A stretch of DNA of 26,097 nucleotides, taken from positions 1 to 26,097 of the forward strand of contig JAULBX010028880.1 in NCBI GenBank assembly GCA_032358255.1. Direction: 5' to 3'. Origin of the DNA: Heterotrichella gracilis (taxonomy: Eukaryota > Sar > Xanthophyceae > Tribonematales > Xanthonemataceae). A program made the position numbers and the translations under genes. The notes under the pieces were generated by a model. The model worked only from the letters and a program-made list of their open reading frames with translations, had not been told where the DNA came from and made no database searches. This document shows positions 652 through 26,097 of this stretch, in pieces (the first letter of the stretch is position 1; every line of letters begins with the position of its first letter).

Positions 652-3600
652 TTAAAACACCCAAGTCCAGCTTTCAGCCAGTGGCCGCCCCGAGGCACCC
701 ACCCACACCCCATCAGGACTGCTCACCAAACCCCCACTGCCCCCACCACCCTCCCCCTCCATAGCCAATCGCCTGGGTACCACCGTGGAGTTCCCTCCCC
801 TTGCATCGATGTCATCCCCACCGCCACCCATCGCTACCGGTGCCCCACTCTCGGCCCCCTCGTACAGCACAAATGGTCCGCTGGTTCCAAAGAGGCCGTC
901 ACTGACCACGTAATCGCCTGCAAATTACATTCATAAAGTGAACAATAAAGTAAACAAATGGAGCAAGTTGAGTCGATGGATAGTCATAGTGCGGTTGCAT
1001 CAAAAGTTACCTGCCTTGCAAGGGGATATGTTTAGGGTTTAGGGTGTATGGGCTGGTTCCAGGCAGCCGCTCGTGAAGGAACGGACAAGCATTGGGTTGA
1101 GGATTTAAAGCCTGTGGCAATTTCTTTGGCCACAGGGCTGAGGGTGTAGAGTTTCAGAGTTCATTCACCTGCAGCGCCATCCCATTGCGCTAGTTCATCC
1201 ACCACTTTGATAGGGTGTTTAGGACACAGGTCCTAGGTTTTGCTCACCTGTGGCGCCATCCCACTGCGCCACTCCATCCACCACCGGTAGGGTATGTGGC
1301 TTGCCGCTGCGCCATGTCTGGCCAATGACCCCATGCATGTCGGTGACCGAGCGGTCAAGGATGGCAACGCGGATGTCCAGCCACTGCAAAATCACACGGG
1401 ACTGATAAGTTTATTATTAAATGGCATTGTTTTTAAATTAATTATCTTGTTCAAAAACGTGGCACTGCCAATGACCCCATGCATGTCGGTGACCGAGCGG
1501 TCAAGGATGGCAACGCGGATGTCTAGCCACTGCGGGAGACAGTGGAATACAGTTGTTAAAGCAATGGAAGGCAAGCTGGTAAAAGACTTGAAAGTAAATT
1601 TGTATAATTTTGGATCAGGTGTGTCCGTGTAGCCCGTGGGGGTCTGCCACGACATGTTTGACCGAGGCGCCATGCATGTCGGTGACTGTGAATGAAACGC
1701 GTGGTGTTTTCAGGGCGACCACCCCTAAACCCTAAACCCTATATCCTAGACCCCAAACCCTATATCCTAAACCCTAAACCCTACCGGTATGCTGCAATGA
1801 CTGTAAATGACATGAGCGCTGTCTTCAGGAAAACGAAACCCAAGATCCTATTTCCTTATCCCTAAGCCCTGCACCCTACCTGGTACGCGGCGATGACTGT
1901 GAAAGACATGAGCGATGTCTTCAGGGAAACCGCCTGGCGCCCCGCGGCATCCCTCTCCCTAGTCACCACCACCTCTGCTCCTCGGATGCGCATGGGTTGG
2001 TAGGGGACCAGGTAGGGGGTCACGTCTTGGTCCATTGCATACACTGCATGCACAAGGGGTGGGTGGGGGGGTTGAGGGATTTGTCGATAAACAGGTTCAG
2101 CTTGTCCCAAAGATGGCGGTGAATGTTTTGGGGGATTAATGGTGATATGCAGGAAGACCTTTTGGGGTAGTGGGTGGGGCCACTGGTGGGTGCGCATGGG
2201 TTGGTAGGGGACCAGGTAGGGGGTGACATCTTGATCCATCGCATAGACTGCATGCACAGGGGAGGAATTTTTTACGAATTTGCTTCTATAACAGAGGGGA
2301 AAGCCAGCTGTTTAATGCTTGTGGTCGAGGTCTGTTTGGAGAGAGGGGTGGTGGCTAGGCATGCCACTCAGGATTTCTGGTGGTGGTGGGGACGAGGTAG
2401 GGGGACGCGTGTTGGTCTATCACACACACTGCGTGCACAAGGAACGCATGGGTATCCACCTCCCAGTGTACCTTTGCCTCTCGACTTCACAACAACATTT
2501 AGGGTTTATATATTTAGGGTTTTCCTCCACCCACCTCCCAGGGTGCCGTTGCCTCGGGACTCCACCGCAATGCGCGCCCCCCCCAGCCTGAACCCCATTA
2601 GGGTCATGTAGTTGTTGGTCACCACCTCGTTGCCCAGGTTGGAGAACAGGGCACTGACCTGCAAGGGTTGAGATTAGGGTTTAGGGTTGGTGATGAGGTT
2701 TAGGGTTTAGGGTCATGTAGTTGCTGGTCACCACCTCGTAGCCTAGTTTGGAGAACAGCGCAGAAACCTGCAAGGGTTAAAATTAGGGTTTAGGGTTTGT
2801 GATGAGGTTTAGGGTTTGCGGTTTAGGGTTTAGTTGCTGGTCACCACCTCGTTGCCCAGGTTGGAGAACAGGGCGCTGACCTGCAGGGGTTGAGATTAGG
2901 GTTTAGGGTTTGACTAATACAGGGTTTGTGGTTTACGGTTGGCTTAATGGTGATGAGCTCGTTGCCCAGGTTGGCATGGGATTGAGGGTGTAGGGTTTAG
3001 CAGGCTGGATGGTTGAGGGTTGAGCCCGGAGGGCTTAGTTAGCACTCTTGACTTGTAGGATCTGCTGTAGGGTTGTAGGGTTTGGGGTGCGCATGACGAC
3101 CCCGAGGGACTAGGTAAGGGTTTACGGCGCAGGCTTTACCACGCATCCTAAAAGCACTTCTCACTAAAAAGATAAACACCACCATCGATACAATACAACA
3201 CACCAGGCCATGGTTGCATCAATATTCTAGGGTTAAAGTGTATAGTTCAGGGTTTCAAATCGGGTATATTTTGCTGACCTGGAATCGCGCTTCACTAAAT
3301 ATGTTGAACACAGTCCCCGAGGTGCCATCGAAATCGAAGAATTTCCCGTCAAACCCGCGAACGTGGGGATCCCCAAAGCCGCCACCGGATGGGCCCTCGG
3401 CAGGGGGGTCGCCGCCGCTCGGGGATGGGGATGGGGATGGGGATGCTGCATGGCAGGAAACCGGGGGTGAGTGGATTATGGACTCTGTGGGATGATCGAT
3501 GATGCATTGTTAAGAGTTTGGGGATTGTCTTTGGGGGGCAGGGAGGGGGGGGGGGCAGGGACGCATCTGACGAGAGCGGGGATCGTCAGAATTCAAAACA

Positions 3601-6105
3601 AAAAGGCGGTGAATGGTTGAGCCATGGGTCACCAGCATGATAGCCGCATGCCAAACTGACTGACAGCAAGGACACACTGCACCCTGAGGGATTAACAAAA
3701 CCCTAACTTAGGGCTTCAGGAAACCCTAACCCTACAAAGTTGACCTACCGCAGCCGCAGTCCACAGTGAACACCAGCGAGCACACCCTGCAGTGGTTTGA
3801 CCCCACCCCGCAGCCTCCCGATCCCGATTGGGACACCAGGTTTATGCTTGCGGTAAGAAAGGGGTTGACCTGGCGGTGCGAAAACCTGTCGTCCTGCGAG
3901 GAGAAAAACCCTAAGGGTCAGTGATTCTGGTGGGGCGGCAAACGGTGTTAGAGTAGTTAAAGGGGGGACCGGTCAGCAGGGATCTGGACTCAACATCCTA
4001 AACCCTACACCCTACAGCCAGGTGAACTGTGTTGAAGGATACCTACCCTTCCAACCCTATAAACCCTAACGGCAGGACGGTGGTTTCCCGACCGCATACC
4101 TGGAAAAGGATGATCACAGTCGCCTTGTTGTTCACGCAGGGGAGGGTAATGGTCCCCTACCAAATCCCCTAACCTTCGGGTCCCCCCCCCCTTTTCAATC
4201 CTACCGCTTACCTGGAAAAGGATGATCACTGTCGCCTTGCCATTCACGCAGGGGAGGGTGATGGTCCCTGTGCGCGCGCCCCTTGCAAGGTTGGAGGCCC
4301 TCCGGCACTGGCCACCACCACTGCGCCTGCCTGTGATAGGAAAAAAGAAGATTGAACAATAAAACAAAAAAACAATTAAATTATACAAATACATAGCCTG
4401 GCGTGTTCACAACAAGACAATAAAATCTGGTATGAAAGGTGCCAGTTTAAAGCCCATTTTTTTAAACAAACACGCTCGGCATGGCCTACACCAAGACCCC
4501 GGCTTACTACACTTCTCTCCCCTTGTTACATGTGTCTCCCCCCCACTTACCTGAAATATCGGCTGTGGTGGGTATAGTACATCAATACCCAGCCCCACTA
4601 GGTAGGCTTCACTAAATCCCCCCTAGTTATATTCCCCCCTACCTGAGATTTCGGCTGTGGTGGGTGAAGATACCACCAGGCTCCCTAGCCTGCCACTCCT
4701 TCTGAAGCACTGCTGGGCGCACACAGTGACTGTGGTGCAGGTAGAGGAGGTGACGATCAGGCATTCATCGTTGGGGCTGTTGATGGGCTCCCCGCCGCCT
4801 CCATACCTGCAAAAATAAAATAGATAAATTATATAAATAAATCAAAATGTGCAATTGCTACAGGAGGACAAAATGGATGCATCTAGCTTTTTTTATATAT
4901 TTTTTAAGACACGGATTATATATTGACTGTGGTGCAGGTAGAGGAGGTGACGACCAGGCATTTATCGTTGGGGCTGTTGATGGGCCTCCCGCCGCCTCCA
5001 TACCTGCAAAAATTTACGTAAAGTTTTGGATTCATATTTGGATTAATCCAGCAAAGAAATCCAGTAAACTTTAAGTTTTGATTCAATCCAGCACAGAGAA
5101 TGTATAAAATTGCTCAATTACTTAGTGCTGCAAAGAACCAACAAGGCGTAAACAGAAAGCCTTGTACAACAACAGCAATAAATGCAATAAATTAGCATAT
5201 GACGATGTGGACGCTTCGTACGCTTTGCTAGGGCGCATAACAGCAAAACCCTAAAGCTGGAACCTAAACCCTGAATCTGGGTCTTAGACCCTAACCCCGT
5301 ACCTGAACAGTTCGCTGGCATACACACCAGCAAAACCCTAGACCTGAATGTAAACCTAACCCCCCGTACCTGAACACTTCGTTTGCGTAGTGCTTGCGGC
5401 CCACTGGGCGGGGGGTTGGGGCACATACCAGCCAAACCCTAGACCTGGATCCTAAACCCTAACCCTGTACCTGAACACTTCGTTTGCGTAGTGCCTGCGG
5501 CCCACTGGGCGGGGGGTGGGGCAGGGGCAGTCGTCATTCCCTGCATGGTGGGATGGTGGGGTTTAGGGTTTGGAATTAGGGTTTTGGGATTGGCAGGGGC
5601 TGGCAGTTGCTTTACTAGTGCTTGAGGCAAGGGGGTGGGGCAGGGGCACTCGTCGATCCTGCAGGGTATGCGGGGTGGGATGATGGGGTTTAGGGTTTTG
5701 AATTAGGGTTTGGGGGTGGGCAGGGCCTGGCAGTTGCTTTACTAATGCCTGTGGCCAACCGAGCCTGGTGGTGGGGTTTAGGGTTTTGGCTTTTGTGGTT
5801 TAGGGTTGGCAGGATCTGGTGTTGGCATGGTGGCCAGACATCATAAGGACGCTTGCCAGGGCTATATCAGCACTCGTCACTTTAGTCATAAGGGGGGTCC
5901 CTGTCTACCCTGTCCGATGATATACAGGGTCAAGGGTTTATGGTTTAGGGTTTAGGGTTTTGAAAGAGGTGCACTTACCGGCGTTGCAGCTGCCCCTTCC
6001 AGTTAGTCCACTAAGTCCAGTGGCCTGCGCCCCTCCTGCCAGTGCCAAGAGGGTGACGGCTGCAAGCAGCAATACCCTGCTGAGGGTTTCTCTGGTGGTG
6101 GTCAT
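652..6105 (-). CDS. Secreted root-cap/LEA-related protein with GDPH domain, 10 exons, complete
   Basis: Exons (minus strand, 5' to 3'): 6105-5979, 5540-5471, 4806-4643, 4330-4212, 3893-3749, 3445-3279, 2658-2535, 2043-1880, 1383-1248, 917-652. They total 1482 nt, or 493 residues plus TAA, with matching phases throughout. I chose the ATG at 6105 because it gives a clean signal peptide (MTTTRETLSR, then a Leu/Ala core ending AGGAQA). An in-frame ATG at 6225 would bury it behind a Pro-rich stretch. Residues about 40-209 are Cys-rich. Residues 210-218 are a Ser-Pro repeat linker. GDPHVRGFDGKFFDFDG (233-249) opens a domain whose order matches plant root-cap/LEA-related proteins, including DMHGVIGQTWR at 375-385, equivalent to the plant GVLGQTYR motif. 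Near the C-terminus GDYVVSDGLF resembles the end of the same family. It is probably secreted to the wall or matrix. The biochemical function is unknown; a von Willebrand D-like fold is an alternative description of the GDPH part. Confidence 0.85.
1166..1837 (-). repeat. Echoes of exons 8 and 9 of the root-cap-like gene
   Basis: The exon 9 donor end (1245-1296) recurs at 1166-1217. The exon 9 acceptor end (1322-1387) recurs at 1468-1533 with a single mismatch in 66 bases, and that mismatch is synonymous (CTG to CTA). The exon 8 donor end (1877-1931) recurs at 1782-1835. A poorer copy at about 1665-1720 also carries an exon 9-like GCATGTCGGTGAC piece, so it looks like a hybrid. All copies run in the same direction as the gene. 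CCCTAAA runs lie between copies at 1723-1782. Confidence 0.8.
2191..2975 (-). repeat. Echoes of exons 7 and 8 of the root-cap-like gene
   Basis: The exon 8 acceptor end (1987-2053) recurs at 2191-2263 and, more decayed, at 2381-2444. The exon 7 donor end (about 2530-2565) recurs at 2456-2489. The exon 7 acceptor end (2605-2665) recurs at 2711-2773, 2831-2887 and as a stub at 2951-2975. Each exon 7 copy is preceded on its left by GATTAGGGTTTAGGGTT-like sequence, so the unit that was copied already contained telomere heptamers. Confidence 0.8.
3420..3444. repeat. Coding (GGGGAT)n microsatellite
   Basis: About four GGGGAT units lie at the start of exon 6 of the root-cap-like gene. Read on the minus strand they encode the Ser-Pro repeat linker just before the GDPH domain. 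Length variation in steps of six bases would add or remove SP dipeptides without a frameshift. Confidence 0.75.
4097..5668 (-). repeat. Echoes of exons 2, 3 and 4 of the root-cap-like gene
   Basis: The exon 4 donor end (4208-4267) recurs at 4097-4157. The exon 3 donor end (4637-4668) recurs at 4546-4575, and its acceptor end (4727-4815) at 4924-5013. The exon 2 donor end (from about 5466) recurs at 5366-5423 and as a shorter stub at 5298-5330. The exon 2 acceptor end recurs at 5631-5668. CCCTAAACCCTAA lies left of exon 2 (5453-5465) and GGTTTAGGGTTT lies to its right (5560-5571). Confidence 0.8.
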
Positions 6106-6999
6106 GGTGGGGACTGGGGGGGGTTGGCCTGGGATGGTAGCCTGGGTTGGGGATGGTGGGGATAAAGGAGATGCCTGCACAGTGGTGGTGGCTGTTGCTG
6201 GTAGGGGTTGGTTATTGGTGGGCAAGGAGGCCTTTTAGGTATTCTAGGCTGTTACTCTTGATAAACTGGTGCCAATGCTATTGGTTTCACGAAAGAGGTA
6301 AAAGAGATCCAAGTTTTGAAACCGATATCACAGTCGCTTTTAACAGTGCGGCGGGTCGCGGGTGACAGGAAACACGCCTAGCCCGTTGGCCTAGCCTGCT
6401 TCCAGATATGCCAGAGGGTGGGTCGCACGCAATCAATCAAACAGGGTGGGTTGCGTGCATGGCCATGGCCCCCAATGAGATGCCCCCGCTGCCGAACCGC
6501 TGTCCTTGGTTCGCACCTTGCGTGTATTTCCTCCAGCGCTGGGTATCTGCAGCGTCGATGTTGAGAACCGCAGCTATCGCCACTGTCCCGGACGATGGCA
6601 ACGTTCCACCAGAGGCGCACTCTTTGAAGCAATGGTACCGCACTAGACTGTTTATACGCCACTGGTTAGGCGCCCTTTTGTCGAGTTGCTGGGGATAGGG
6701 GCTGACCTGAACGTACCAGAGCACATATAACTGCGGGGAGTGGCAGGCTGCGCGCAATTGGAACGGTACATCGCGGTGCGACTGTGTCCCTTGGCCTACT
6801 CGAGTTACGTACCACCACTAGGGAACTTGGGCAGTGCCTGGGTTTGTCGGACGAAGAGGTCGCTTCCTAAGGGTACAGAGGGTGGATACCAGAGGTTGGG
6901 GCTTACGTAGGTGCTGTTAGGGAGTGCCAGGTGGCGACGCACATTTTGGCAGGGGGGGGGCGCCCCTTACGAGGAGCGGGTGCCAGCGCCTGTCCTTTT

Positions 7000-7046
7000 C
7001 GGAATGCCACAAATGCATGCATGCGCCTGCAAAAAGTGGCATTCCG
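7000..7046. repeat. Inverted repeat, 11-bp perfect arms
   Basis: CGGAATGCCAC (7000-7010) pairs perfectly with GTGGCATTCCG (7036-7046) across a 25-base loop containing ATGCATGCATGCG. It lies in the spacer, outside any recognised gene. Confidence 0.6.
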
Positions 7047-9038: not shown

Positions 9039-11390
9039 TCACGTGCCACCGCCAGTACCCTGGCTTAGGGTCTTCGACAATATGTGGTAGGTGTACTCCC
9101 CCTCGGGGTCCACCACACCGGGGCTGGTGGGGTCATCGCTCAGCCTGGTGGGCAGGGGAGAAAGGGTTTAGTTAGGGTTTTTAGTTGGGTTTATGTACCA
9201 CAGATTTTAAGTCTTCCTTCGCGGTCCGCCACACCGGGGCTGGTGGGGTCGTCGCTTAGCTTTAAGGGGGATGAAAGGAGGGTTTCCAGCTAGGGTTTTC
9301 AATTAGGTTTCCAATTGGGGTTTGTGCCACAGATATTATCCCTCGGGGTCTACCACACCGAGGCTGGTGGGGTCATCGCTCAGCCTGAGGGGGAATGGGA
9401 GGAGGATTTTCAGTCTGGATCTTTGGTTTGGATTTACACTAGGGTCAAGTTAGGGTTGGAGGGCTTCCAGCTAGGGTTCTCAGCCTGAGCCCCAATGGGC
9501 TGCTGTTGGGCTTTTGCCGCACAAGACCTGCGGCAGGCCACCTGTGGGAAGTAGGCTCTTCCATATAGGGTGTGCACAAGCTCATTGCCACTGTAGGCTT
9601 TCTTCCATACAGGGTGTGCACAAGCTCATTGCCACTGTAGGCTTTCTTCCATACAGGGTGTGCACAAGCTCATTGCCACCGTGGGCAATCTTCCATACAG
9701 GGTGTGCACAAGCTCTTGCCACTGTAGGCTTTCTTCCAGACATAGGACACGTACTCACCCTGCGCTCTGGTAGAAGCCTATCGCCCCCCGATTGACCGCC
9801 TGCACCGTGAGTACAAGCTTGCGCATGGCCGCAGCCCGCCCCAGCGCCTCCACTTGGGTCAGCAGCATGCGGCCCATACCCTGGCGACGGGCGGAGGGGG
9901 AGACCTGCGCAATTAAAAAAAACTTTTCAGTACCGCGCGTTCCGCTGGGAACTCCTAAACCCAAATCCTATCTCCTAAATGCAGCATGAGGCCCAGACCC
10001 TGGCGACGGGCGGAGGGGGACACCTGCCCAATATACCCAATTTTCAGTGCCGCGCGCTCCGCTGGGGAGGAGGCCACACTCAGAATTCTAAACCCTAAAT
10101 CCTAAACTTCGAACCCTAAAACCCTTGATGCGCGTACCTGCAGCTCGTGGATGTACACCACCTCCACCTCGTCCTCCCCCACAAACCAGTACAGCACAAA
10201 CCCTAAACCCTGACACCAAACCCTAAAACCCTAAAAGCGCGTACCTGCAGCTCGTATAATGTACACCACCTCTGTGTCGTCCTCCACCACACATCCAAGA
10301 CCCTAAGGGTCAAAAATGAACCCCTAAAACCCTCAAATGTGCGTACCTGCAGCTCGTAGATGTACACCACCTCCATATCGTCCTCCACCACAAATCGGTA
10401 CTGCACAAAGCCAACCACCGCCTGCTCCTTGGGGATCCCGAATTCATTTGCGGGGACTGTGAAGGCCACCAGGAAGCTGCAAGGAGGGGGAGGGGAAACA
10501 AAGGTGTTAGTAAGTGGCAGGGGCACACACTCTCGTGGTGGGGGAGGGGAGCAGAGCTGTGGGTGGGGGTGCTGGCACACAGTCCTCTGGTAATAGTTTG
10601 GGGGTTGCGTTGTAGGGTTTAGGGTTCTCACCGAGCACCCTTGGCCTTCATCTGCCGGCTGTTGATCGCCTTCATGCATTTTCCAGTACCTAGGTTTTTG
10701 GGTTGAGGGTTTAGGGTTTCTCACCGGGCATCCTTGGCCTTCATCTGCCTGCTCTTGATCGCCTTCATCCTGCCCCAGTCCTTATCATACACCGCCGCCA
10801 TGTTCTCCTCCAATATCGCCATGTACTGACTGCTCAGGCTTTTGCGCAGTCGCGGGAGCCATTGAAAGCTCACACGCGCCCCTACCAAAGCTGTGGAGGG
10901 TTGCACCACTTGTTGGGGTTTAACCGCGTACGCCTCGGCCACCGCTTGCAGCGCGGGTTTGTTCACTTTTTGCCTCTTCTCGGGGGGCTCAAACTGGCCA
11001 AGGGTGTCAGCCTGCAGGGTGTGGGGGTGCGCATCTCAGCTGCAGGTATAGGGTTTACATTGTATGGTTTAGGGTTTAGGTTCTTGAATGGCTCAAAACT
11101 GGCGGGGGGTGGTGGGTGGGTGCGCAGCTCAGGATGTGGGTAAGGGGTTCAGATCCATGGTTTAAGGTTTGGGTTCTCGGGGGTCTCAGACTAGCTGAGG
11201 TGCCTGCGACTGGGTGTGGGTTAGGGTTTAGGGTTATCAGGTGCCTCACAATTGGATAAGGTTGTGCAGCTAAATTGTGGTCTGAGTGTGCCCCCACCTT
11301 GTCAGCAGCCTTAGATGGAGGAGCATGCTGCTTAGCCCGTTGGATGTTTGCCTGGTTGGTCTTCTGCTCGCACAGCATCCCGAAGGGCAT
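9039..11390 (-). CDS. NAA40: N-alpha-acetyltransferase 40 (NatD), 5 exons, complete
   Basis: Exons: 11390-11298, 11011-10725, 10476-10347, 9904-9759, 9144-9039. They total 762 nt, or 253 residues plus TGA, with all phases consistent; human NAA40 is of similar size (about 237). The GNAT fold is recognisable. Acetyl-CoA motif A is RRQGMG (residues 176-181), followed by KLVLTVQAVN and IGFYQSAG, which parallel human KVMLTVFKHN and AYQFFREAL. The preceding exon ends VVYIYELQ; its YIYE aligns with human YCYE, whose Glu is important for activity as I recall. The N-terminal part holds a basic EKRQKVNK stretch and LEENMAAVYDKDWG, equivalent to the human NMQTMYEQSEWGW segment. The last exon, DPTSPG...YTYHILSKT, matches human DDSSPS...CSYEILSRR. 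NatD acetylates the N-termini of histones H4 and H2A, in nucleus and cytosol. The least certain exon is the first (31 residues, chosen for its ATG, phase and GT donor). Confidence 0.88.
9211..9390 (-). repeat. Two echoes of the NAA40 last exon (acceptor side)
   Basis: The final NAA40 exon's acceptor half (about 9096-9151) recurs at 9211-9260 and 9339-9390 in the preceding intron, in the same direction. The second copy is the better one. Each copy is followed on its right by TAGGGTTT-type sequence. Confidence 0.8.
9559..9740. repeat. 44-bp minisatellite, about four units, in NAA40 intron 4
   Basis: Units starting TTCCATACAGGGTGTGCAC begin at 9559, 9603, 9647 and 9691. The first has a single change (ATATAGGG) and the last is slightly deleted and diverges at CCAGACATAGG. 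The array ends about ten bases before the donor of the GNAT-motif exon (9758-9757 on the minus strand). Confidence 0.85.
9980..10680 (-). repeat. Echoes of NAA40 exons 2, 3 and 4
   Basis: The acceptor end of exon 4 (9862-9951, including the RRQGMG codons) recurs at 9980-10067. The donor end of exon 3 (10341-10409) recurs twice, at 10131-10200 and 10237-10293, each with an intact GTACGC-type donor and a CCCTAAA spacer. The donor end of exon 2 (10719-10770) recurs at 10626-10680 with an intact GTGAG donor. All run in the gene's direction. Confidence 0.85.
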
Positions 11391-15255: not shown

Positions 15256-16563
15256 ACTGGTGAACCCCTACGCCAGGGGATGCCGGCGCGTGGAAACCCT
15301 AGCTCAGAGCGGGTGTGAAAACCCTACGCAAGGGTTGGATGATTCGGTCAGGGTGGGGTGGTTGACCAATGCATGCGGTCAATGTGACTCAGATCAGCCT
15401 GGCTGCAGCTCTAGCGCTGGTGGGGAGGGGGCTGCTGGGAAGAAATGGCTGTTTAGAAACCCTACAGGAGGGTTATGTGGTGCAACGCAGGGTGGGGTGG
15501 CAATGTGCTTGATGAACGTGGTTACTCCCCTTTCTACTTCTCCTTTTGGTGAGTTTGGTCAATACGGTCCAGCTCAGCCTGGTTGCGGGACTGGCGCTGC
15601 CTGGGAAGGGACTGGCTTGATTTCACACTCTAGGACGGCTGAGAAAACCCCTTTTTTTGCGTACCCTGAGGGTTTTGTGAAACCCTCAGGGTGTGTGTAC
15701 CATGGTGTGGCTGACAAGTGAGCGGTCAACATAGGCAGTTCGACCTTTTGGTTCACTGACAGTGTATAATATCCCTAGCCTAGGGCGGGACGCCGTCTGA
15801 AGACCCTACAAAAGGGATGGCTGACGAGTGACGCGGTGTACATGGCCCATATGAGCCTGGCAGTGGGCTCTCGCTGGCGGGGATGGGCTAGTGGGACAAG
15901 TTGGTGAAACCTTGCGCAAGACCCAGGTTAAAGTTTATGTGGCGCGGGGGGCTGACGAACGACGTTTTGCCAAAAGTTTCATCGTTTAACGTGACGCGTC
16001 GGATTTTATTTTTCCGCTTTTGGTCAACATGCCATGGTGTGGATCAGCAACGACGGGTAGAGCCCCATTGCCAGGCTGGATGTGGAGCAGGGCTGGTATT
16101 TAGGGCCACGGAATTAGGGTTTAGGGTTTGATATTGCTGCGGCAGCTCCAATTATTGGGACACCCCATGGCCATGCACACAACTCATTCTCGCCGACAGG
16201 AGTACAACGCCTGCTTTATCTTTGCACTGGGCCTTGCACGTCCCTGTTCACTGTCCGTAACTGGTTCCATTCAGCCCATTGGTGGACTCCAGTACTGCAT
16301 CGACCCTGAACTTCTGAGCCGACGAGAGTGGGCTGCAGGCCGTTTTCAACGTCTGCGCTCGCCACCATAGTCACTGCCCACCAAGCTCTAATATTCAAAG
16401 TACTCCACGCCTATATAACTGTATCGATACACCTATTTGGAAGCTATCCAAGTGCTGCCGGGCTTGCTTTCGAACGGCGTGGTTGTGGGTCAGCTTCGCT
16501 ACCATTGCGTCACATGCATGCATCAGTGTCCGACCACCACTGTCTCCAGTTCCAAGAAACGTG
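15256..16563 (+). repeat. Serial decayed copies of the VTE6-like last exon, then spacer
   Basis: After the stop at 15255 the coding tail (GTGGAGTGGCTGAGC ... GGGGCTACTGGGG) reappears at about 15345-15440, 15485-15615, 15818-15895 and, weakly, 15945-16060. Most copies are followed by an AACCCT...AGGGTT mini-palindrome (15320-15336, 15458-15474, 15804-15816). None retains an open frame. From about 16100 to 16563 there is one TTAGGGTTTAGGG run (16113-16125) and then the 5' flank of the second paralogue. That flank resembles the first gene's 5' flank around 12780-12850. Confidence 0.75.
15663..15692. repeat. Perfect 13-bp stem hairpin of telomere-like motifs
   Basis: ACCCTGAGGGTTT and AAACCCTCAGGGT pair perfectly around a TGTG loop. 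Each arm is itself a small CCCT-N-AGGG palindrome. It lies within the serial last-exon copies downstream of the VTE6-like gene. Confidence 0.75.
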
Positions 16564-19400
16564 ATGAGGCCCTCGAAAAGACTCCCAGCACCATACACAG
16601 CTACCAACTGGCCTAAGAGTCGCCAGATGCGCGTCAACGCAGCGCTGGACCTTTCTGAGCTGGGTTCTGGCGTGCAGGTGAGCCATGACTCGCATGCGCA
16701 CGCCGTCTGCCATTCCTGCACCACGCAAACGCCAGAAGCGTCATGTCTGCACAATAAACCGCTCTCACACATGACAAAACCACAAAATTACAAATAACAC
16801 CGAACACACAACTTGTAGAACCAACATAACCTCCTCTCAGCCACATCCCCCATGCATGCATGTGTGAAGTTCGACCCACCAATTGCTGATAGACGATGTC
16901 TGCACATTAAAAACAGTGTTGAATAGCAGTTCAACGCCGTACAAACAACATGCAGTACCAATATATCCTCCTCTCAGCCCCATCCCCCACACATGCATTT
17001 TTGAAGTTCGACCCACCACCTCTCACATGTGTACACAACCCACCCATGCCCCCCACAGGGGGCGCTCACCGCCGCCGCCACCACCATCCCCCCCGACCTC
17101 CTCGGCGGCCTCATCGTGAACACTGCCGTTTTCATCGCCGACAAGAACCCGGTCTTTGGTGGGTCAACCATGAACCCTTGGGGAAGGGCCCAGTCCTTTG
17201 TCATCGGCACCGCCATCTACACTCCCTTTGGGGCCGGTGGCTATGCGCTCGCCTGCACCTACTTTACCCTGGACAGCGTACTCGCCAGAATCAAGAAAAG
17301 GGCAGCGGAGGAGACAGAGGAGGTGGCGGCAGGGCCCATGCCCATGGCGCGTCCCCAAAACCCTACAAAACCCTACACCCTACACCTGCACAAAGCACGG
17401 CCATCTACACCGCTTTTGAACCCAGGGGTACGCTGTCGCGTGCCTCTACTATGTCCTGGAGGCTGCACTTGCCAGCATCCAGCCAAATGGTATCGGGAAA
17501 GAGGATGGGACAGCGGAATTGAGTGGGAAGGTGCCCATCATGCGTCTACAAAACCCAAAACCTTTGACCCTGAACCGCGTGAGAACCCCACCACCCTCTA
17601 CAGCCTCATCTTCCCTTCCCCTCGCACCCAACCACGTGCCCACCCCTGCTACCCCTGCAGGACGGCGTGTGGGCCTCCTGCGCTCTGGGGCTCGGCTGTG
17701 GCCTTGCGGCACTCACACTGGGAGATGCGGAGGCCTGGCGCGCAGGGTGAGTAAGAGTGGTTCCGTTTATATTATTCTGTCATTTATAAAAAAAAACAGT
17801 CCCTTCTGTTGTTGTTCGTTTGTTTTCTTTACGCGAACACTAAAGTTGCCTGTATATTGCAGAGCTGCGTGGCATGTAATGTACTGTATGTCACCCCAGA
17901 GTCCCAGCTATATATAGTATCCTCCCACTGGGGGACACAGATGTGTGGCGTGCGGGGTGCACTCATGGGTACCTACCAATTATTATCCCAATAGATGGGT
18001 TGTGGGGTATTGGTGGATGGGGTTTGCCAAATGCAATGCGGCGCCCTGCAAATGGCAAGCCACAAATGTTGGATCAGTCAGAATACGCCAAACACCGAGA
18101 TCAGGCGTGTGGGATGGGTACCCAGCTGGGTAAACGGAGAGGCTTTATGACACAAAAAAAGTGCATTCATGGCAGCACTCACATTGCCAGTTTATTTTGT
18201 TCCAATGCAGGTTTGTGGCCAGCTTAGTTTATTGCTTTTAATTGAATCGATTATTTGATCAATGCAGGTTTGTGGACAGCTTTGCCACCAAGGGGGCGTT
18301 GCTGTCCTACAGGGCGGTGGACCAGGCATACCCCACCTACCTCTTCAACTTCGATGATGAGAAGATTCCAAGGGGCTTATACTTACAATTGCAAAAGATA
18401 TAAAAAACGCAGCATGCATGTGTTGATCAACATTAACGTTAACAATATTTATTTTTCAATGCAGGTTTGTGGCCAGCTTTGCCACCAAGGGGGCATTCCT
18501 GGCCTACAGGGCGGTGGACCAGGCATACCAGCACCCCACCTACCTCTTCAACTTCGATGATGAGAGGGTCCCAAGGAGCGAGGTGGAGCTCCCTACCCTG
18601 CCCCTGGAGGATGTGGGGGCCTTTCCGGGGACTGCGGTGGGGTTTGTGGTGCTGGCGCTGGCGCTGCACCAGGTGGGTTCAGGCTTGACATGCTCTTGTG
18701 CGCTGCAAGGGTTTTGGGGTGCGTGCTTAGGGTTTAGGGCATTCCTGTCCTACAAAGGCATACGAGCTGCCCATTTACCTCTTCAAATTCCACCTGAGGC
18801 GAGTTGCTTTAAAGCTCCTGACTGTCAAGGCTAAACTTTGACAGCTTAGTTTAAACCCTAAACTCTACACCCTTAACTCCCATCCTGAGAGGGTCCCAAG
18901 GAGCGAGGTGGAGCTCCCTACCCTTCCCCTGGAGGGGGTGGGGGCATTTGTGGGGACGTCGGTGGGGTTTGTGGCACTGGCGGTGGCACTGCAGCAGGTG
19001 GGTGTAGGGTTTAGGGTTACCTGCTGCCTTTGTCACTGGCTATGTTGTGTGGGGTGTGAGTTTGGGGCCTGTGCAAGTGGGCGCAAGCCGTGGTTGGCTT
19101 GCCGAGCAATGACGCACGCCCTGAAACCCTTCACTGCTGCCGTAAACCCTGACAAGCCCTACTGCCTCGCAGGTTTCTCCCGCTGATGCCTCTCTCGTGG
19201 CGTTCGCTGCCCTCTCCACTGGCTACTACGTGTGGGGTGTGGGGAGCCTGGACGAGTTTTGGGGATTGCGCAAATGGGCCCAGGCCAGGGTGGGGTGGCT
19301 CACAGATGAGGTGGTGGAATTGATAAAATGTGGGGTTGGCGGTGTGGTGGGTGGTGCAGGGGGCGGGTGGTGGGGGTGCCGCACAGGGGTGAAACCCTAA
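16564..19400 (+). CDS. Diverged tandem paralogue of VTE6-like gene, signature motifs lost
   Basis: Exons: 16564-16677, 17059-17346, 17661-17746, 18465-18672, 19173-19400. They total 924 nt, or 307 residues plus TAA. Exon order, phases and the length of exon 3 (86 nt) match the upstream gene. Exon 2 (GGLIVNTAVF, FVIGTAIY, ACTYFTLDSV) is clearly homologous. In exon 4, where the active copy reads SDTVSSEIGK, this one has GAFLAYRAVDQAY, and GTEGAVSVEG is replaced by a Glu/Leu/Pro-rich stretch, so kinase activity looks lost. The ATG aligned with the upstream gene's start has become ATT (16504-16506). I use the next in-frame ATG, 16564. Exon 2 needs a GC donor (GCGCGT at 17347) where the sister has GTGCGT; a phase-0 GT in the preceding GAG GAG GTG is an alternative. 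The last exon ends in VKP plus a TAA inside AAACCCTAA. It could be a pseudoenzyme, a protein of new function, or a gene on the way to becoming a pseudogene. Confidence 0.62.
16800..17022 (+). repeat. Tandem duplication inside intron 1 of the second paralogue
   Basis: About 85 bp at 16800-16885 (CCTCCTCTCAGCC, CATCCCCCA, GAAGTTCGACCCACCA) recurs at 16937-17022 with moderate divergence. No exon sequence is involved. Confidence 0.7.
17347..17352 (+). promoter_or_regulatory. Probable GC-type 5' splice site
   Basis: The context ATG|GCGCGTCCCCAAAACCC aligns with ATC|GTGCGTCCCCAAAACCC at 13541 in the sister gene. A GC-AG intron here keeps phase 0 and an open 307-codon frame. This rests on alignment only. 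Confidence 0.5.
17400..17558 (+). repeat. Decayed copy of the 3' half of exon 2 (second paralogue) in its own intron
   Basis: From CCATCTACAC onwards this tracks exon 2 (from about 17213) through to a donor-region match, GTGCCCATCATGCGTC. Indels break the frame. The copy keeps TGCGTC, close to the first gene's donor rather than the mutated GCGCGT. Confidence 0.75.
18202..18998 (+). repeat. Array of whole and partial exon 4 copies in the second paralogue
   Basis: Copies in order: an acceptor stub (18202-18234); an acceptor-side copy that stays open (18257-18376: FVDSFATKGALLSYRAVDQAY...); the complete exon used in the model (18465-18672); an internal fragment (18748-18800); and a donor-side copy (18884-18998) with GTGGGT. 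The acceptor copies all start GCAGGTTTGTGG. A decayed internal copy of exon 5 follows at about 19026-19115. Confidence 0.85.
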
Positions 19401-19654
19401 AAACCCTACACTGGGGAGGGTGGAGGGGTCTCAAATCCCTACATAAGAGCAAGACATGGTTGGTGGGGCGCTGAAACGCAATTGGAATGGTCCACTTGGT
19501 TGGTGCTGGTGTTACTGCTGGCGGTGGTAGTGGGTAATGGTGGGTGCGAGTGGGTGCTGGCAGCTATGGCAGCCTTTTTACATCATGACATGAGGGTCCC
19601 GGAGTAACTCTTAATCAACCCTTGTCAAGGGTCCTAAGGCTTGTGGAAAAACCT

Positions 19655-19659
19655 TGTAA
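19655..19659 (+). promoter_or_regulatory. Candidate TGTAA poly(A) signal for the second paralogue
   Basis: TGTAA is the usual poly(A) signal of many chlorophytes. It occurs 255 bases past the stop, and another lies at 19843-19847. The motif is short, so chance occurrence is likely. Confidence 0.3.
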
Positions 19660-20083
19660 TCATTGATGCATCACCTTTTCATCTACCATGTAGTTCAATA
19701 CGCAGTGACACCCCACTGCACAGCATCAGTGGTGTAGCGCATTCTAATCAACCTTGAATCTTGTCAAAGGATGGACCATGGTGATGCATCCCAGATTATA
19801 TGTTAGAATCAAGCGTGCACACCCGGTGTGCTGGCTGAAGGCTGTAATTGTATTACATCCCACGCAAGATTTGAATCAACACCTCGTATTCCCATGGCAT
19901 GACGTAATGATTGTGACAACAACCATGACATGATTGTGTGATGGCATCATTGGCCACTTCCAGCATTCAATTTGCTTGCCAAGCTGCAGCAGTCGCACAA
20001 TTTGCTTTGAAAGGCCCTGTATGGTACAGTACCTACCATTGGTAAATTACATTACATATTGACTATTGAATACTGAGTGTGAT

Positions 20084-20088
20084 TTACA
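20084..20088 (-). promoter_or_regulatory. Candidate TGTAA poly(A) signal for NAT10
   Basis: TTACA on the plus strand is TGTAA for NAT10, about 640 bases past its stop. Further copies lie at 20047-20051 and 20052-20056. A long 3' UTR would be normal in green algae, but the evidence is weak. Confidence 0.3.
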
Positions 20089-20723
20089 TTGCATTGCGGC
20101 AAAGCCTCCTTCAGGTTGCAAACATCCGATGGATAAGGCTGAATGCATCAGCTGTTTGGTTCCTACATACAGTAAGCCCAGGAGTTCATGCACTTGGTAC
20201 TGGAAGATGCAACAATCATTGGTGTCGCACTGTTTCAAGATTGAGTCCCCGGGATGCATATTCTGACTAAATTTTACGAGGCTATGCTTTAGGCTATGCC
20301 TTGTGATCCACGCTTTTTGGTGTTTGGCGAGGTGGAACACGCCCTGTTGTGTGTGTTGTGCCTGGCTATGCCCTGTGGGCGTTTCCTTTCTTTCTTTCTT
20401 TCTTTCTTCAAGACGCATTCTCAATGGGCTAGGTTGAGCCACCCACCCATCCGCATAACATGGCACCCCAAAATTCCCTTAGACCCTTGGCAAGGGTCAC
20501 AAGCCATCCACCATCCCAAGCACCCCCCTTTCCCTTCTTATACCCTCCCTTGCCCTTTATTCCACCCCACAACCCCCTCGAGGGATGCAGACTGGGGGTG
20601 ACATTTTATGTCCCCTACTCCAAGTCCCACAAAACTTTAAACCACCAAATGACCCATGCCCACCACCCGCCCCTGCATCCCCCCCCCAGCAAAAATCGCC
20701 CTGCATCCGGCAGCCACCCCCCC

Positions 20724-23700
20724 TCACTGCTTTGACTTCTTGTACCCCCCCTTGCCCTTATCCCCCTTCCCCCCCTTGCGCTTATCGCCCCCCTTGTCAG
20801 ATTTCTTGTACAGCGATGAAGGCGCCGACTTCCCCTTGTCCTTTTCCTCCTTCTTGTTACTCCCCTTGATGCTCACCAGCCCACTGCTGGGGATTGATTT
20901 CCCCGTCAGCGCATCCTCAAAATCTGCCTCATTCCCCGGGATAGCATACCGGGCCAGGTCTTCTGGTTTCAGCATGTCCCGCATGGAATTCCGCACAGCC
21001 TGCACGAGGAATAATTATTCTTGTTATTATTTTTTGGGGGAATGGGAAAGAGAACCACAATCACACGAACAAAGAGGGGAATCCACTGGCCAACACAAGC
21101 TGGAATCGGTGTTTAGGGTTTTCAGCAGGGTGCGGTGGGTTGTGACAGGGCAAAATGTATCCAGTTCTAACAAACACCGCCATAAACCCTGGAAACCCTT
21201 ATCAAAAACCCTTACCTGCGCGGCCTCGTCCAGCTCGGCATCCAGGCCCACCTCGTGGGGCTTTAGGGTAACGCTAGGATCCAGCGCGGGCCGGGGCAGC
21301 GCCCTATCCACCGCTGCCTCCTTTGCCGCCCTCAGATGTGCGTGCAACCTGCGCACTGCCTTGTTGAAGAGGGCCAAGACCTGGCTGGCTGGCAGCTGGA
21401 GCGCCTCTTCAACCGCTGATATGTCCACCTGGGGAGAAGGGGGGAGCACATACGTTAAAAGGAGATTGGAAAAAGTTACATGTGTCTGGCTGATGGATTA
21501 GGGTTTTGGGTGTAGGCCGGGTGGTGCCCAATGGTGGGTGGTGGGGTGGGTGCGTTCAGCTTTGTTGAAGAGGCCAAGACCTGGCTGGCGGGGAGCTGGA
21601 GCGCTCCTCCACCGCTGATATGTCCACCTGGGGGAGGGGGGAAGGCATATTTATTAGGGGTCCAAGTGTAAGGATTTGTTCATTGGTGTGTGGGTGGGGT
21701 GGGGGGCAGGATGACAGTGTGGGTGGTTGATTTTAGCCGAGCTTTGTAAGTTGCAATGAAGAACTCTTTGGCGTGTGTGGTCAGAGTTCAGATGCCCTCA
21801 GATGTATGTTCAGATGTACCCCCACCCCCACCCCCACCCTCACCACCCACCTGTTGCAACCCCAGAGCCACCAGAATGGCAGCCTGGCCATAGGAGAGGG
21901 TGGCGGGCAGGCGGCCAGAGAAGGATACAACCGGATGAAGGATAACATATTCACCACCACCACCACCACCACCACATTATTACCGTCACCATCACCACCA
22001 CCACAAGCACTCACCTGTTGCAACCCCAGAGCCACCAGAATAGCTGCTTGGCCATAGGAGAGGGTGGCGGGCAGGCGGCCGGAGAAGAATGCGCGGGCGA
22101 GGGGAGGCAGCAGATCCAGGACCAAGTGGTGGTCCACCAGTTGATTCGAGTAGGCCTGCGGGGTTGGATGGGAGTCTTAAGGATGGCATTTCAAGGTGAA
22201 AACCCTAAGTAAGGGCTTGGAATTACAGTAGATGCACAGGCCAGGGAAGGCAGCAAGTCCAGGACCAAACAGTGGTCCACCAGTTGATTCGAGTACGGTA
22301 GGTCTGCAAGGGTGGATGGGGGCTTCAAAATGTGTATGTTGAGCCTAACACCCTGAGTTAGGTTTTTGAAATCAAGGGCAAAGGGTGGTACATAATCACT
22401 TGGACTACGAGTTTATTGAATTAAGCCTGCATGGGCGGGCTTCCCCATACTGTCCTACATTTGCAGCCAAAAATCCAAGCAGTCCTATACAAGCAGGCCT
22501 TGAAGGCATACTAGCTCCGAGTTCCAATGGACGTAGACGTTTCAGCTGCCTACCTGCAGACGCTTGAGATCGTAGGCGTTGAAGCCCTCCCCATCCGGCT
22601 TCACTATCACCACCCCTGACTCGACCGCCCTCTGGCTCTCAGCCTCACTGTGCGTAAGCTGGGGATCCAAGATGGACAGGGAGAGGGCGGGGGTGAAGGT
22701 CCTGCGGGGAGGGTTATTGTCACTATCAGTATGTTTGTTTATACTAACCCTAGCAAGGGTTTAGCCATAACTAGATCCTGGATGGACAGGGTGAAGGAGA
22801 GAAAAAAGGGGGTTTCAAAACCCCGCACGGTGCATACAGCCACCACGGCATGAACTTGCAATGGTTTAGGGTCTAAGGTTTGCGGTTCTCCGTACCTGAA
22901 CGCCCCTGGCAGCAGGCCCATGAATCGCGTCTTGAAGTCCTTCACAAAAGGCTCAAGCCAGGCGGTGCCCTCAACCTCGGGAGACTTGAGCGCTTTCAGC
23001 ATCACCACCGTATGCTCGCCTAGCAAAAAGGGGGAGGGGGGGGCGGGATTAATCAATAAACAATGAAAACATCAGTAAAGAAATGCAGCATGACCACGGT
23101 GTGCTCGCCTGGCAATGAACCCTATCAGAAACCTACCAAAACCCTGTCGCAAGCATCCTACTAGCACCCTAGGAAACCAATCTCTCACCTGTGACGTCGC
23201 TTGCTGTTTGGCGCAGGTACACCGGCTGGTAGCCCCCCTTGCGCCAGAAGTTGTACAGGTGCTGGGTGAGGCCAAAAGAGGTCCCCAAGTATTGCAGGCG
23301 CTCAGGGGGGCACTCAGACAGGTGTTGGAGGAGGGGGGGGAGGCCGGTGCGGGGGGCCAGGCGCTCCTCGTGCAGGGCACCTGCAATGTAAAGAAATGTT
23401 CGATAACGCATAAGGTGTGTTTTATGCTTTTCAGGGAAAGAGGTGGTGGCATCTAACACTACGGGAGGGAGGTGTCAAGATACTGCAGGCGCTCAGGGGG
23501 GCGCTCAGACAGGTGTTGGAGGAGGGGGGGAGGCCGGTGCAGGGGGCCAGGCGCTCCTCGTGCAGGGCACCTGGGAAATGCAAAGAGGGTTTGAGCGTAT
23601 GGGGTGTGCTTTTACTTTTGGGAACTTATTTTTGGTTCTCTTTCGAAGTTTGTTTCAATAATTAAAAGTGAGTTCAGGATTTTCCTTGCGTGGTTATTCT

Positions 23701-26097
23701 GGTGCGGAACTTACCTTCCTCCCCGTTTTGCACCCCGTTCTGTTTCTTCCCCCCTTGTTTCTTCCCCTTGGGCTGCTCCCCCTCGCTGTCCTCCCCTTCG
23801 TTCAGATCCGCCAGCTCCCCTTGGTAGAACCTCTGCAGCAGCTCCAGGCAGCGGGTGCCGTACCTGCGCAATGCGGTGCATTTTCGAGCCATTTAAAGGG
23901 TGCCCAGGGGGTATAAAACTAACGAGGTCCTAAACCTGCTGCATATGCACCCCATTATCGCCAGCCCTTCATGAAATTACACATGTGTCCCAGCAGATGA
24001 ATTTATGGTTGCAAGCAGACGTGCACCAACGGAGAGACTTTACAAAACCCTTGCCAAAACCCTAACAATACCCTCCGCACGTACCCTGCCCTGCTCAGCT
24101 CTGGGTGTGTGGCGATGCGCACAATCCTCGCCCCTGATAGGGACGGGAAGTCTGGATCTTGGAATTGCTGGCCGATCGTCCAGGGGATGAGGTCTCCCTG
24201 ATGAGAAGAGGGGAGGGAAGAGAGGTGAGGAATTGCGTTGTGGACATGGGACATGTATGGGATGGGGGTGTGTTGTGGGGGACGATACGAGTGCAAGTGC
24301 AGTGACAGTCTTAGCCGCAAGCCTCGCTCTTAACGTACGTGGAAAGGTACAATGTACTTTCAAGAGCGCCATCCAACTGGCATCGATGTGTACTTTTGTT
24401 TCCTTCACCCTGGATAATACATTTATTTGATTGAATGCTTCCTTGTGATCCACAGCAATGAGCTTATATATGATATGGCTGCCGAATGGTTACAGCTCAA
24501 CGTAGCAACATTCATGTACATAGCATTGATCGTTCCCATCCCCACCCACCCACCCACCCACATCCCCACCACCACCACCACCCCCCACCTGTGGTGCCTG
24601 GCCCTGCGCCAGGCTGGCTGCTGCTGCCTTGCGCGAGATGGAACCCTCTAGCGCCACCTGGCAGATGGAAAACGCAGGATTTTCAACAAAATGGGAGTTG
24701 TGCCAGAATCAGAGTTTCAACAAAATAGGAATTTCGACAAGGTAGGACTTCCGAACTGGAGGCCGCTATTTGAAAGAGATGGAACCTTCAAACGTCTCCT
24801 GGCAGCATCATGCCGTGAATAAAATATGAAACACACCAAAACAGACCTGCAACTATGTGAGAATGTATTCCCAGCTTGGTACATCGATGCCCTGTGCCAG
24901 GAAAGGAGCTGAGTGGCGGCGCATGTGCAAGACTGACTGCTAATCTGGCTGTATTGCTGGAATGCATGTGACTAACTAACTAACATTGATGCCTTCCACT
25001 GAACACACTTATAAAGAAACCCACCTGCACCACCGCCAGCACATCCGGAAGCACGTTTTTGGCGGGATCCACCGGCCCCAGCAGCGCATACAGCCTGTGC
25101 GCAGGGGCATCGGCCAGCAGCAGCAGATCGTTGGGGCTGTTCTTGTAGTGTGAGGCCACGTACAGGGCCATGACCCGCTGGAGAAACAGCTCAGAGGCCT
25201 GCAGTGTAGGGTTTAATAGGGGTTTTATGAGCACGAACAAAACCCTAGGCTAGGGTTTTGGGCTGTTCTTGTAGTGCGAGGCCACATACAGGGCCATCAC
25301 CCGCTGAAGGAACAGCTCCGAGGCCTACAGGAGGGTGTGACAATGGAACCAGCAGGGTTGGGGTTTTCCCAGGAGGCCATGTTGCTCTGAAACCCTAGGC
25401 TAGAGTCTAATTGGTGGCCTAAAAACGCTTTGCTAGGTCGTTGGGGCTGTTCTTGTAGTGGGAGGCCACGTACAGGGCCATGACACGCTGAAGAAACAAC
25501 TCCGATGCCTGCAGGGGAGGGCAGGATTTTCGTTTCAGGAATTTTCTTTAGGGTTGCATTCAGGTTCGTATTTCAAATTTCCTCACCTTGTGGTACGAGA
25601 ACAGCGTGTCCCGATCCACATGGAACAGGTCGCAAGCCTGAGGGTGGGGCAGGCGCGGGGGCAGGGGTGGCAGGTTGTCCGCCGCATCCAGGCAAAGTAG
25701 CGAGTTCAGCCAGCGCTCCACGGGATCGCCCAGCGCATACCTGCAGAAATTCGGGTTTTGCGTCTTCGAAATGTGCATGCGTACATCCTCTCACGCAAAG
25801 CGCTTAACAGGAAAACACAAAGGTCTCAAGGTCAGTAGGGTTGGGGTTAGGGTTAGGAGGGTTGGGAGTAGGGGAGGCAGGTTGTCCGGCGCATCCAGGC
25901 ACAAAAGGGAGTTCAGCCGGCGCTCAACGGGACCGCCCAGCGCATACCTGCAAAGCACGGTAGTTTGGTAGGGTTTTCGTAGGGTTTAAACCCAGGGTTT
26001 GGTTGGGTTGGGGGAGTCAGTGCGCTCCACTAGGTGACCTGCTGATCACGTGCTTTCATCAGAGAGACCCTCCACAACACCGCCCCCACCCACCCCC
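20724..26097 (-). CDS. NAT10: RNA cytidine acetyltransferase NAT10/KRE33, C-terminal 583 residues; 5' end outside window
   Basis: Exons in view: 25740-25587, 25198-25025, 24657-24589, 24197-24085, 23863-23715, 23380-23189, 23019-22896, 22701-22554, 22155-22015, 21428-21216, 20999-20724. Apart from one leading base they give 583 codons plus TGA with continuous phases. Family landmarks in order: end of the helicase region (YALGDPVERWL, DTLFSYHK), YVASHYKNSPND, LPDVLAVVQ, GDLIPWTIGQQFQDPDF, the GNAT motif RIATHPELSRAGYGTR, LPPLLQHLSECPPERLQYLG, YQPVYLRQTASDVTGEHT, then the tRNA-binding region (YDLKRLQAYSNQLVDHHL, LSYGQAAILVALGLQQ) and LDAELDEAAQ. The Lys-rich tail (KKSDKGGDKRKGGKG...) suits nucleolar targeting. 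The enzyme makes N4-acetylcytidine in 18S rRNA and tRNA, using acetyl-CoA and ATP. The acidic/Lys insert after ELADLNEGED (23715-23800) looks lineage-specific. The DUF1726 and main helicase parts must lie beyond 26097. Confidence 0.93.
21561..22310 (-). repeat. Echoes of the NAT10 exons at 21216-21428 and 22015-22155
   Basis: The acceptor end of the first exon (21360-21436) recurs at 21561-21635 with indels that break the frame. The second exon has echoes on both sides: its donor end (22012-22086) at 21848-21930 and its acceptor end (22095-22162) at 22240-22310. CAC-rich microsatellite (21953-21976) fills the gap to the donor echo. Confidence 0.85.
22771..23574 (-). repeat. Echoes of the NAT10 exons at 22554-22701, 22896-23019 and 23189-23380
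   Basis: All are acceptor-side copies: 22771-22800 (short), 23084-23113 (from 22995-23024, around GTGTGCTCGCC), and about 23483-23574 (from about 23291-23383). The last differs by only a few substitutions and one G deletion. It is among the freshest echoes in the window. Confidence 0.8.
24776..25955 (-). repeat. Echoes of the NAT10 exons at 24589-24657, 25025-25198 and 25587-25740
   Basis: Acceptor-side copies lie at 24776-24806 (decayed), 25258-25330 and 25436-25514 (both from 25129-25204), and 25872-25955 (from about 25665-25750). The copies of 25129-25204 keep the YVASHYKN codons nearly intact and still have AG acceptors. Between them lies AAAACCCTA-GGC-TAGGGTTTT at 25239-25259. Confidence 0.85.
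25741..26097 (-). other. NAT10 intron at window edge, with exon echo
   Basis: Nothing in this stretch reads as an exon. It begins with the acceptor CTGCAG at 25746-25741 on the minus strand. It contains a degraded copy of the adjacent exon's acceptor half (25872-25955) and GGGTT/TTAGGG motifs at 25838-25863 and 25970-26000. The next upstream NAT10 exon is outside the window. Confidence 0.6.

Follow-up and report, generated by a model that had tools for sequence, protein, structure and literature searches.

Same-orientation copies of exon borders, many with telomere-type motifs at their joints, in introns of Heterotrichella gracilis

In mammals, telomeric repeats can be inserted during the repair of double-strand breaks, sometimes together with direct target duplications, and at a few horse loci direct target duplication following staggered breaks is described in the passages cited here (PMC7215372). 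In rice, tandem duplications have been attributed to a 'patch-mediated' form of break repair (Vaughn and Bennetzen 2014, as summarized in the review PMC7407515); according to the relevant passages of the review, these duplications are short and direct, some of them being partly tandem or including DNA from up to 200 bp from the break. Introns can also be gained by tandem duplication of exon sequence containing a proto-splice site (PMC2891723 and PMC4974935, in the portions cited), and direct repeats of 4 to 30 bp at or near both intron borders have been linked to break repair (PMC11782384, in the portion cited).

In the genome of Heterotrichella gracilis, introns contain same-orientation copies of the borders of their neighboring exons, here called echoes. 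Like the interstitial telomeric sequences of mammals, as presented in the cited parts of PMC7215372 and PMC2246262, they involve short internal telomeric repeats; unlike them, the echoes are bound to gene bodies and splice borders, their duplications measure tens to hundreds of bp, and the insertion is a putative one. The review passages on rice mention neither an exon-border rule nor a telomeric joint, whereas the echoes have both. With intron gain by exon duplication, as treated in the portions cited above, they share local duplication and splice sites that hide the copy from the mRNA; however, they are copies of existing borders within existing introns and require no new intron. Under intron gain, the copy of the upstream exon should end at the acceptor of the intron and that of the downstream exon should begin at its donor; an echo border lying no more than 5 bp from the other end of the intron was found in 1 of 45 donor echoes and 0 of 45 acceptor echoes. 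Both the echoes and the border repeats of PMC11782384, in the portion cited, lie beside splice sites, the echoes being longer and located inside the intron. Introners would be expected to occur in many near-identical copies across the genome, whereas each of the two spacers (the DNA between an echo and its source) that were searched in the assembly as possible dispersed elements matched itself alone, so that for most of the filler no source was found. Exon repeats in introns of Chlorella are said to have been the subject of an old report.

Exon-edge echoes in the window

The window, that is, the whole stretch of 26,097 nucleotides analyzed (C635:1-26097), belongs to a 903-contig assembly that totals 68,512,230 bases, and contains five genes. 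The gene at 0.7-5.5 kb gave no Pfam match, and that at approximately 9.1-11.4 kb, on the minus strand, encodes a GNAT acetyltransferase (PF00583 match). The genes at 13.0-15.3 and 16.6-19.3 kb are tandem paralogues, the first matching PF01940 (DUF92) and the second, as translated, giving no Pfam match. The gene at 20.7-26.1 kb encodes a NAT10-type RNA cytidine acetyltransferase, showing up to 65% identity to its best homologues and 58 to 61% to those of green algae (Volvox, Ostreobium, Monoraphidium, and Symbiochloris), a resemblance which, together with the plant-type telomere motif described below, points towards a probable green alga. An Rfam scan of the window at gathering thresholds gave no match. 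By spliced alignment to the homologues P0001, P0004, and P0006, the NAT10-type gene (20727-25740, minus strand) was divided into 11 exons, at 25587-25740, 25025-25198, 24589-24657, 24085-24197, 23715-23863, 23189-23380, 22896-23019, 22554-22701, 22015-22155, 21216-21428, and 20727-20999; the three alignments disagree on the first and last exons, the start of the first being taken from its acceptor, and that of P0006 shows extra weak small exons and two shifted edges in the 23.2-23.9 kb part. Outside this gene, exon borders were called by a small purpose-built gene finder, for which the same data had served as training set. It recovered all 10 homology-based NAT10 introns, joined the first two genes (0.7-11.4 kb) in a single model, and also called echoes as exons, such calls being removed by a rule (36 in the first set of loci, defined below).

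Self-BLAST of the window (E ≤ 1e-3) yielded 46 direct pairs and no inverted ones. Thirty-seven of the direct pairs were spaced 79 to 386 bp, in concordance with an earlier note on this DNA, which had described same-orientation border copies without inverted ones. The other nine, spaced 3.6 to 4.4 kb, connect the tandem paralogues (13253-15255 and 16630-19392), contrary to its statement that there were no distant copies. With the border rule, 28 rows (17 acceptor and 11 donor) were counted at 21 borders, fewer than the 25 acceptor and 14 donor copies that had been estimated by eye. Echoes had been claimed for every gene and for most exons; they were counted in four of the five genes, the gene at 13.0-15.3 kb having none, and at 15 of the 28 window exons tested (12 acceptor, 9 donor). 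The observation of exon-edge echoes is thus confirmed as real, with corrections to its extent.

The echo most similar to its source lies in the first gene (minus strand), where the acceptor edge at 1321-1387 recurs at 1467-1533 with 1 mismatch in 67, the match reaching 4 bp into the intron; this is the best case of the earlier note, placed there at 1468-1533. The spacer between the two (1388-1466, minus strand) has no detected homology to the outer flank and a single match in the assembly. Further acceptor echoes on the same strand were located at 2188-2262 (from 1984-2058, with a second, less similar echo at 2384-2442), 4924-5013 (96%; from 4727-4816), and 5631-5755 (from 5512-5628), as well as in an array at 2598-2974, in which the acceptor edge 2598-2658 and its echoes are separated by TTTAGGG-like repeats. 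Donor echoes, also on the minus strand, were found at 1165-1205 (from 1244-1284), 1766-1834 (from 1861-1930, overlapping a CCCTAAA-like stretch at 1723-1783), 4088-4156 (from 4200-4268), and 4516-4573 (from 4617-4665), and the region 5266-5523 contains the donor edge 5423-5523 followed by tandem echoes at 5322-5423 and 5266-5322. The GNAT acetyltransferase gene (minus strand) carries two acceptor echoes of 9100-9192 at 9216-9434, a donor echo array of 9981-10412 at 9862-10295, whose copies are separated by CCCTAAA repeats, and a donor echo of 10698-10768 at 10605-10675.

Of the paralogues, the gene at 16.6-19.3 kb has echoes at two borders, both on the plus strand, with two acceptor echoes of 18446-18579 at 18193-18376 and a donor echo of 18550-18686 at 18875-19011. 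The other paralogue, at 13.0-15.3 kb, shows three copies of the terminal part of its last modeled exon (15159-15251, 15346-15439, and 15557-15613, within 15159-15628); the border rule omits the end of the last modeled exon, and the copies at 15346-15439 and 15557-15613 were hence not counted. They represent either a donor echo overlooked by the gene model or a repeated gene end.

The NAT10-type gene gave eight BLAST pairs, of which seven span an exon edge fixed by homology and the eighth pairs two echoes of one edge. Its acceptor echoes, all on the minus strand, lie at 21551-21644 (exon 21216-21428), 22232-22320 (exon 22015-22155), 23476-23586 (exon 23189-23380), 25251-25337 and 25435-25521 (both of exon 25025-25198), and 25864-25952 (exon 25587-25740), and a donor echo of exon 22015-22155 lies at 21817-21926 on the same strand.

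Border bias in the genome sample

The genome was sampled in 20 stretches of 10 kb, to which 5 were later added. L009 and L011 were removed before counting, and the search-derived loci L001 and L022-L033 were likewise not counted, the counted set being the window plus 23 stretches (256 kb, 0.4% of the genome). L009 (C72:40001-50000, 35% GC) and L011 (C92:40001-50000, 31% GC) are AT-rich, with long open frames, unlike the other stretches; they are perhaps organelle or foreign contigs within the assembly.

The 20 sampled loci contained 71 direct versus 2 inverted pairs within 500 bp, and their Markov-resampled versions contained none of either kind. In the full 256 kb, 130 direct pairs (40 to 600 bp apart) were found versus 2 inverted ones within 600 bp, in agreement with the direct local copies left by break-repair duplication. 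These 130 pairs comprised 89 at borders, 18 classed as exon interior or other, 12 intronic, 8 outside genes, and 3 exonic. The copies also kept to one side of their source: acceptor copies lay upstream in 45 of 46 rows and donor copies downstream in 45 of 46, the 92 rows listed exceeding the 89 border pairs because the edge tolerance differs (6 versus 4 bp). The two wrong-side rows were left out from the edge analysis onward. In the first set of loci (the window plus 18 stretches), 74 of 102 in-gene pairs spanned a border, whereas over 200 random placements this share averaged 37% and never exceeded 49%; wholly intronic pairs numbered 10 versus the 34 expected from random placement.

In the whole sample, 77 of 746 borders, or about one-tenth, and 66 of 428 exons were echoed. 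Recognizable copies of borders are available in many grades of decay and with a candidate molecular mark at the joint (see below), making intron growth and its telomere link directly testable; intron lengthening and the origin of spare splice sites are otherwise mostly inferred from rare cases. The window is above average, with 21 of the 77 echoed borders, and the spread is uneven, 8 of the 23 sampled stretches being echo-free and others having up to 7. The genome-wide habit that had been proposed is thus supported by echoes across the sampled genome and qualified by the echo-free stretches and by the size of the sample, 256 kb of 68.5 Mb. As to the earlier idea that introns grow from their own exons, recognizable echoes occupy 7,613 of the 132,239 intron bp in the counted loci, so that this may be only one of the routes of intron growth.

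A test of 50-bp exon edges against the adjacent introns (score ≥36) showed the same side rule. For acceptor edges, 28 of 255 exons had a copy in the intron upstream and 0 of 201 had one in the intron downstream; for donor edges, the counts were 34 of 255 downstream and 0 of 201 upstream. Shuffled introns yielded 0 of 255 for each edge type, exon middles 3 of 111 and 5 of 111, and random intron segments 16 of 300. The last control was unmasked for low complexity and may include echo-to-echo matches, so that its rate is probably an upper bound. Even so, intron segments recurred about half as often as borders, a result that argues against a strictly border-only process. Border copies are nevertheless commoner than copies of exon middles or of random intron segments, and the earlier reading of a process that duplicates borders is in this way partly supported. 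Echo identities of 68 to 99% would fit the idea that the process may still be running.

Random tandem duplication was simulated with 1,200 viable events (581 border and 619 intronic) of the observed unit lengths, with neutral decay in introns and echoes and silent change only in exons. Border pairs made up 0.49 to 0.54 of the simulated pairs versus 89 of the 101 border-or-intronic pairs observed, whereas we would expect break-repair duplication to be blind to borders. The ratio of aligned length to unit was about 1 in the simulation versus 0.52 in the data, and unaligned spacers of ≥40 bp occurred in 0 to 21% of simulated border pairs versus 66% of real ones; a single indel rate was used for introns and echoes, and with far more frequent indels in introns the simulation would come closer to the data. 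Simple tandem duplication therefore fails to reproduce the data, and survivorship alone does not yield the border share. The real pattern needs border-biased breaks, trimming and filler at the intron end, or homogenization of the exon part. The echoes are common in the sample and go beyond the plainest duplication model.

Copy structure and telomere-type motifs at the joints

Starting from the border, the unbroken match extended a median of 8 to 19 bp into the intron, depending on the class, and 18 to 60 bp into the exon, the corresponding intron median for random border pairs being 3 bp. Nine of the 12 most similar pairs had an intron run of ≤11 bp. Break-repair duplication predicts copies that abut or are separated by filler alone; spacers of <40 bp were seen in 26 of 75 pairs. 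An initial comparison of the spacer with the outer flank found them related in 2 of 49 cases at z > 3 and in 3 of 49 at a p of about 0.02, and an anchored gapped alignment revealed intron homology past the border (p ≤ 0.05) in 24 of 30 short-spacer pairs and, weakly, in 32 of 60 long-spacer pairs; it was absent (p ≥ 0.2) in 4 of the 12 most similar pairs. Given the long-spacer result, copies are best described as usually stopping close to the splice site rather than precisely at it. Within the aligned part, exon versus intron identity was 88.5 versus 83.5% in nearly abutting pairs (23 pairs) and 89.0 versus 84.8% in the others (50 pairs), as expected if protection covers the real exon alone, and identity dropped stepwise with distance from the border.

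Decay of the echoes was mostly free of coding constraint. Excluding rows with an exon overlap of <30 bp, codon positions 1, 2, and 3 differed by 7.8, 6.9, and 18.8%, respectively (73 pairs), and the indels in 59 pairs were frame-breaking in 35 cases versus multiples of three in 5. NAT10 exon 25025-25198 differs from its two echoes (25125-25521) by synonymous changes only (7 of 7 and 7 of 7; heterogeneity p = 0.02), and such pairs are hard to reconcile with unconstrained decay. Echo splice sites kept AG in 41 of 45 and GT in 39 of 45; where kept, they scored 5.1 versus 6.4 for real donors and 6.6 versus 7.2 for real acceptors, random intronic GT or AG scoring about -0.7. The claim that introns fill with decoy splice sites is supported insofar as these sites come close to real ones in score and would be candidate decoys. 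Echoes of the 22 border-limited acceptor pairs (of 45) had a pyrimidine tract of their own (0.69 at -20 to -12, compared with 0.66 for the real site and 0.50 for other intronic AG).

TTTAGGG is the plant-type telomere motif. Perfect 28-bp telomere repeats gave 209 overlapping matches in the assembly (108 + 101), whereas a reversed control pattern gave none, and among the matches listed were TTTAGGG arrays of about 70 bp at the very start of contigs C70 and C140. TTTAGGG looks like the telomere repeat of this genome, and these two contig starts are taken as telomeres. The same motif is present inside introns, as in the interstitial insertion of a genome's own telomeric repeat, with a density per kb of 3.55 in 68 echo-bearing introns, 0.66 in 305 others, and 0.18 outside gene models.

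Within 45 bp, the motif lay between the copies at 31 of 76 joints and beyond the echo, on the outer side, at 13 of 76 (p = 0.002), the remaining 45 of 76 joints having no telomere hexamer; the proportion of windows carrying it in echo-free introns was 4.5%. Without the window, the values were 21 of 55 joints versus 7 of 55 outer sides (p = 0.004), and in the window alone the enrichment was not significant (10 of 21 versus 6 of 21; p = 0.34). Counted per 20 bp from the joint into the spacer, the motif occurred in 22/76, 15/76, 5/48, 2/40, 0/26, and 0/18, and on the outer side in 4, 10, 4, and 1 of 76. The motif peaks where the exon-side end of one copy meets the following copy and fades over about 60 to 80 bp. 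Given the telomeric insertion during repair described for mammals in the cited passages of PMC7215372, this peak is what links the echoes to break repair. Neither the motifs at the joints nor the stop of most copies near the splice site figures in the earlier note.

The first 60 bp of introns were likewise enriched in the motif (31 of 249 versus 48 of 1,090 interior windows; p = 9e-6), a permuted motif giving 4 of 249 versus 11 of 1,090, whereas in the last 60 bp the enrichment was not significant (18 of 249 versus 48 of 1,090; p = 0.07). A role as a splicing signal was considered, and the approximately equal frequency of both orientations after donors argues against it. Over the final two bins of 30 bp before acceptors, TTTAGGG is rare (0.27 and 0.09 per kb) and CCCTAAA is not (1.89 and 1.11), consistent with AG avoidance.

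Origin of the echoes

We give about an even chance to the reading that the echoes are remnants of duplications which arose by repair of staggered breaks and crossed splice borders, often with telomeric filler. Staggered breaks in gene bodies would be filled in and rejoined, leaving a local same-orientation duplication, and the joint would often receive TTTAGGG/CCCTAAA-type filler; from the motifs at the joints we infer that telomerase, or else a telomere, supplied it. Duplications with both ends inside an exon would be removed by selection, whereas those reaching from the exon into the intron would survive: the outer splice site remains functional, the additional copy is removed with the intron, and the mRNA stays the same. 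A border echo would then stay recognizable because selection holds the real exon. The stop near the splice site on the intron side may reflect trimming plus other filler DNA, gene conversion, or border break hotspots. Rather doubtful is the further proposal that exon-intron borders of this lineage are true hotspots of telomerase-linked break repair. Breaks near splice sites would then be capped with telomeric repeats and rejoined, each event yielding a copy of the border that brings its own splice site, so that introns would be lengthened, and splice sites supplied, steadily and by a process targeted to borders. Duplication of DNA near breaks, insertion of telomeric repeats at breaks, and the splicing-out of a duplicated border are each known; in the titles and abstracts listed by searches of open-licence literature, we found no description of genome-wide exon-edge copies with telomeric joints, and that survey did not show the combination of the three at exon edges.

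Tandem duplication of the ordinary kind, arising at random positions through slippage or unequal exchange, with exon-touching copies staying visible through their conserved partner, would agree with the third or so of the pairs that nearly abut, with the weak intron homology past the border in long-spacer pairs, and with the local copying of intron segments as well. It is nevertheless unlikely, since the simulation predicts half of the pairs to be intronic and whole-unit alignment, compared with 12 of 101 and about half the unit observed, and it leaves the joint-bound telomere motifs unexplained. Gene conversion from the real exon, keeping the exon parts of old tandem duplications alike while the intron parts drift, appears quite unlikely: exon parts are about 89% identical, past the aligned stretch the intron parts either align weakly or are lost, and identity falls stepwise from the border, all as it would predict, yet intron-only duplicates should persist too, and neither the telomere motifs at the joints nor the synonymous-only pairs are accounted for.

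The synonymous-only pairs would be explained if the copies came from two diverged haplotypes, by unequal exchange in a highly diverse species, with introns unalignable and silent exon differences present from birth. Third codon positions differing about 2.5 times more than first or second ones, together with the 4 of the 12 most similar pairs that have no intron homology past the border, favor this origin; however, the NAT10 gene is single-copy in the assembly, where a second haplotype of it was searched for and not found, and the closest echo differs from its source at 1 position in 67 and yet shows no intron homology, making such a source distinctly improbable. A function of the echoes as alternative exon ends or as regulators of splicing, maintained by selection, is very improbable, despite splice sites that keep AG and GT and score nearly as the real ones, given the excess of frame-breaking indels and a retention of AG and GT equal to that expected from a decay of about 7% per site. 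An assembly artefact is scarcely credible, the copies differing by 1 to 32%, being direct only, and being tied to splice borders and reading strand.

Repeats of other kinds were also observed in the window. A dispersed repeat of about 90 bp, SINE- or MITE-like, lies at 24894-25005, in the intron between NAT10 exons 25025-25198 and 24589-24657; it contains ACTAACTAACTAAC, has at least 41 other matches in the assembly (40 of 748 candidates scored), and is also present in 7 of the 25 sampled 10-kb stretches. A 44-bp minisatellite, with 4.2 near-identical copies, occupies 9557-9742, in a modeled intron.
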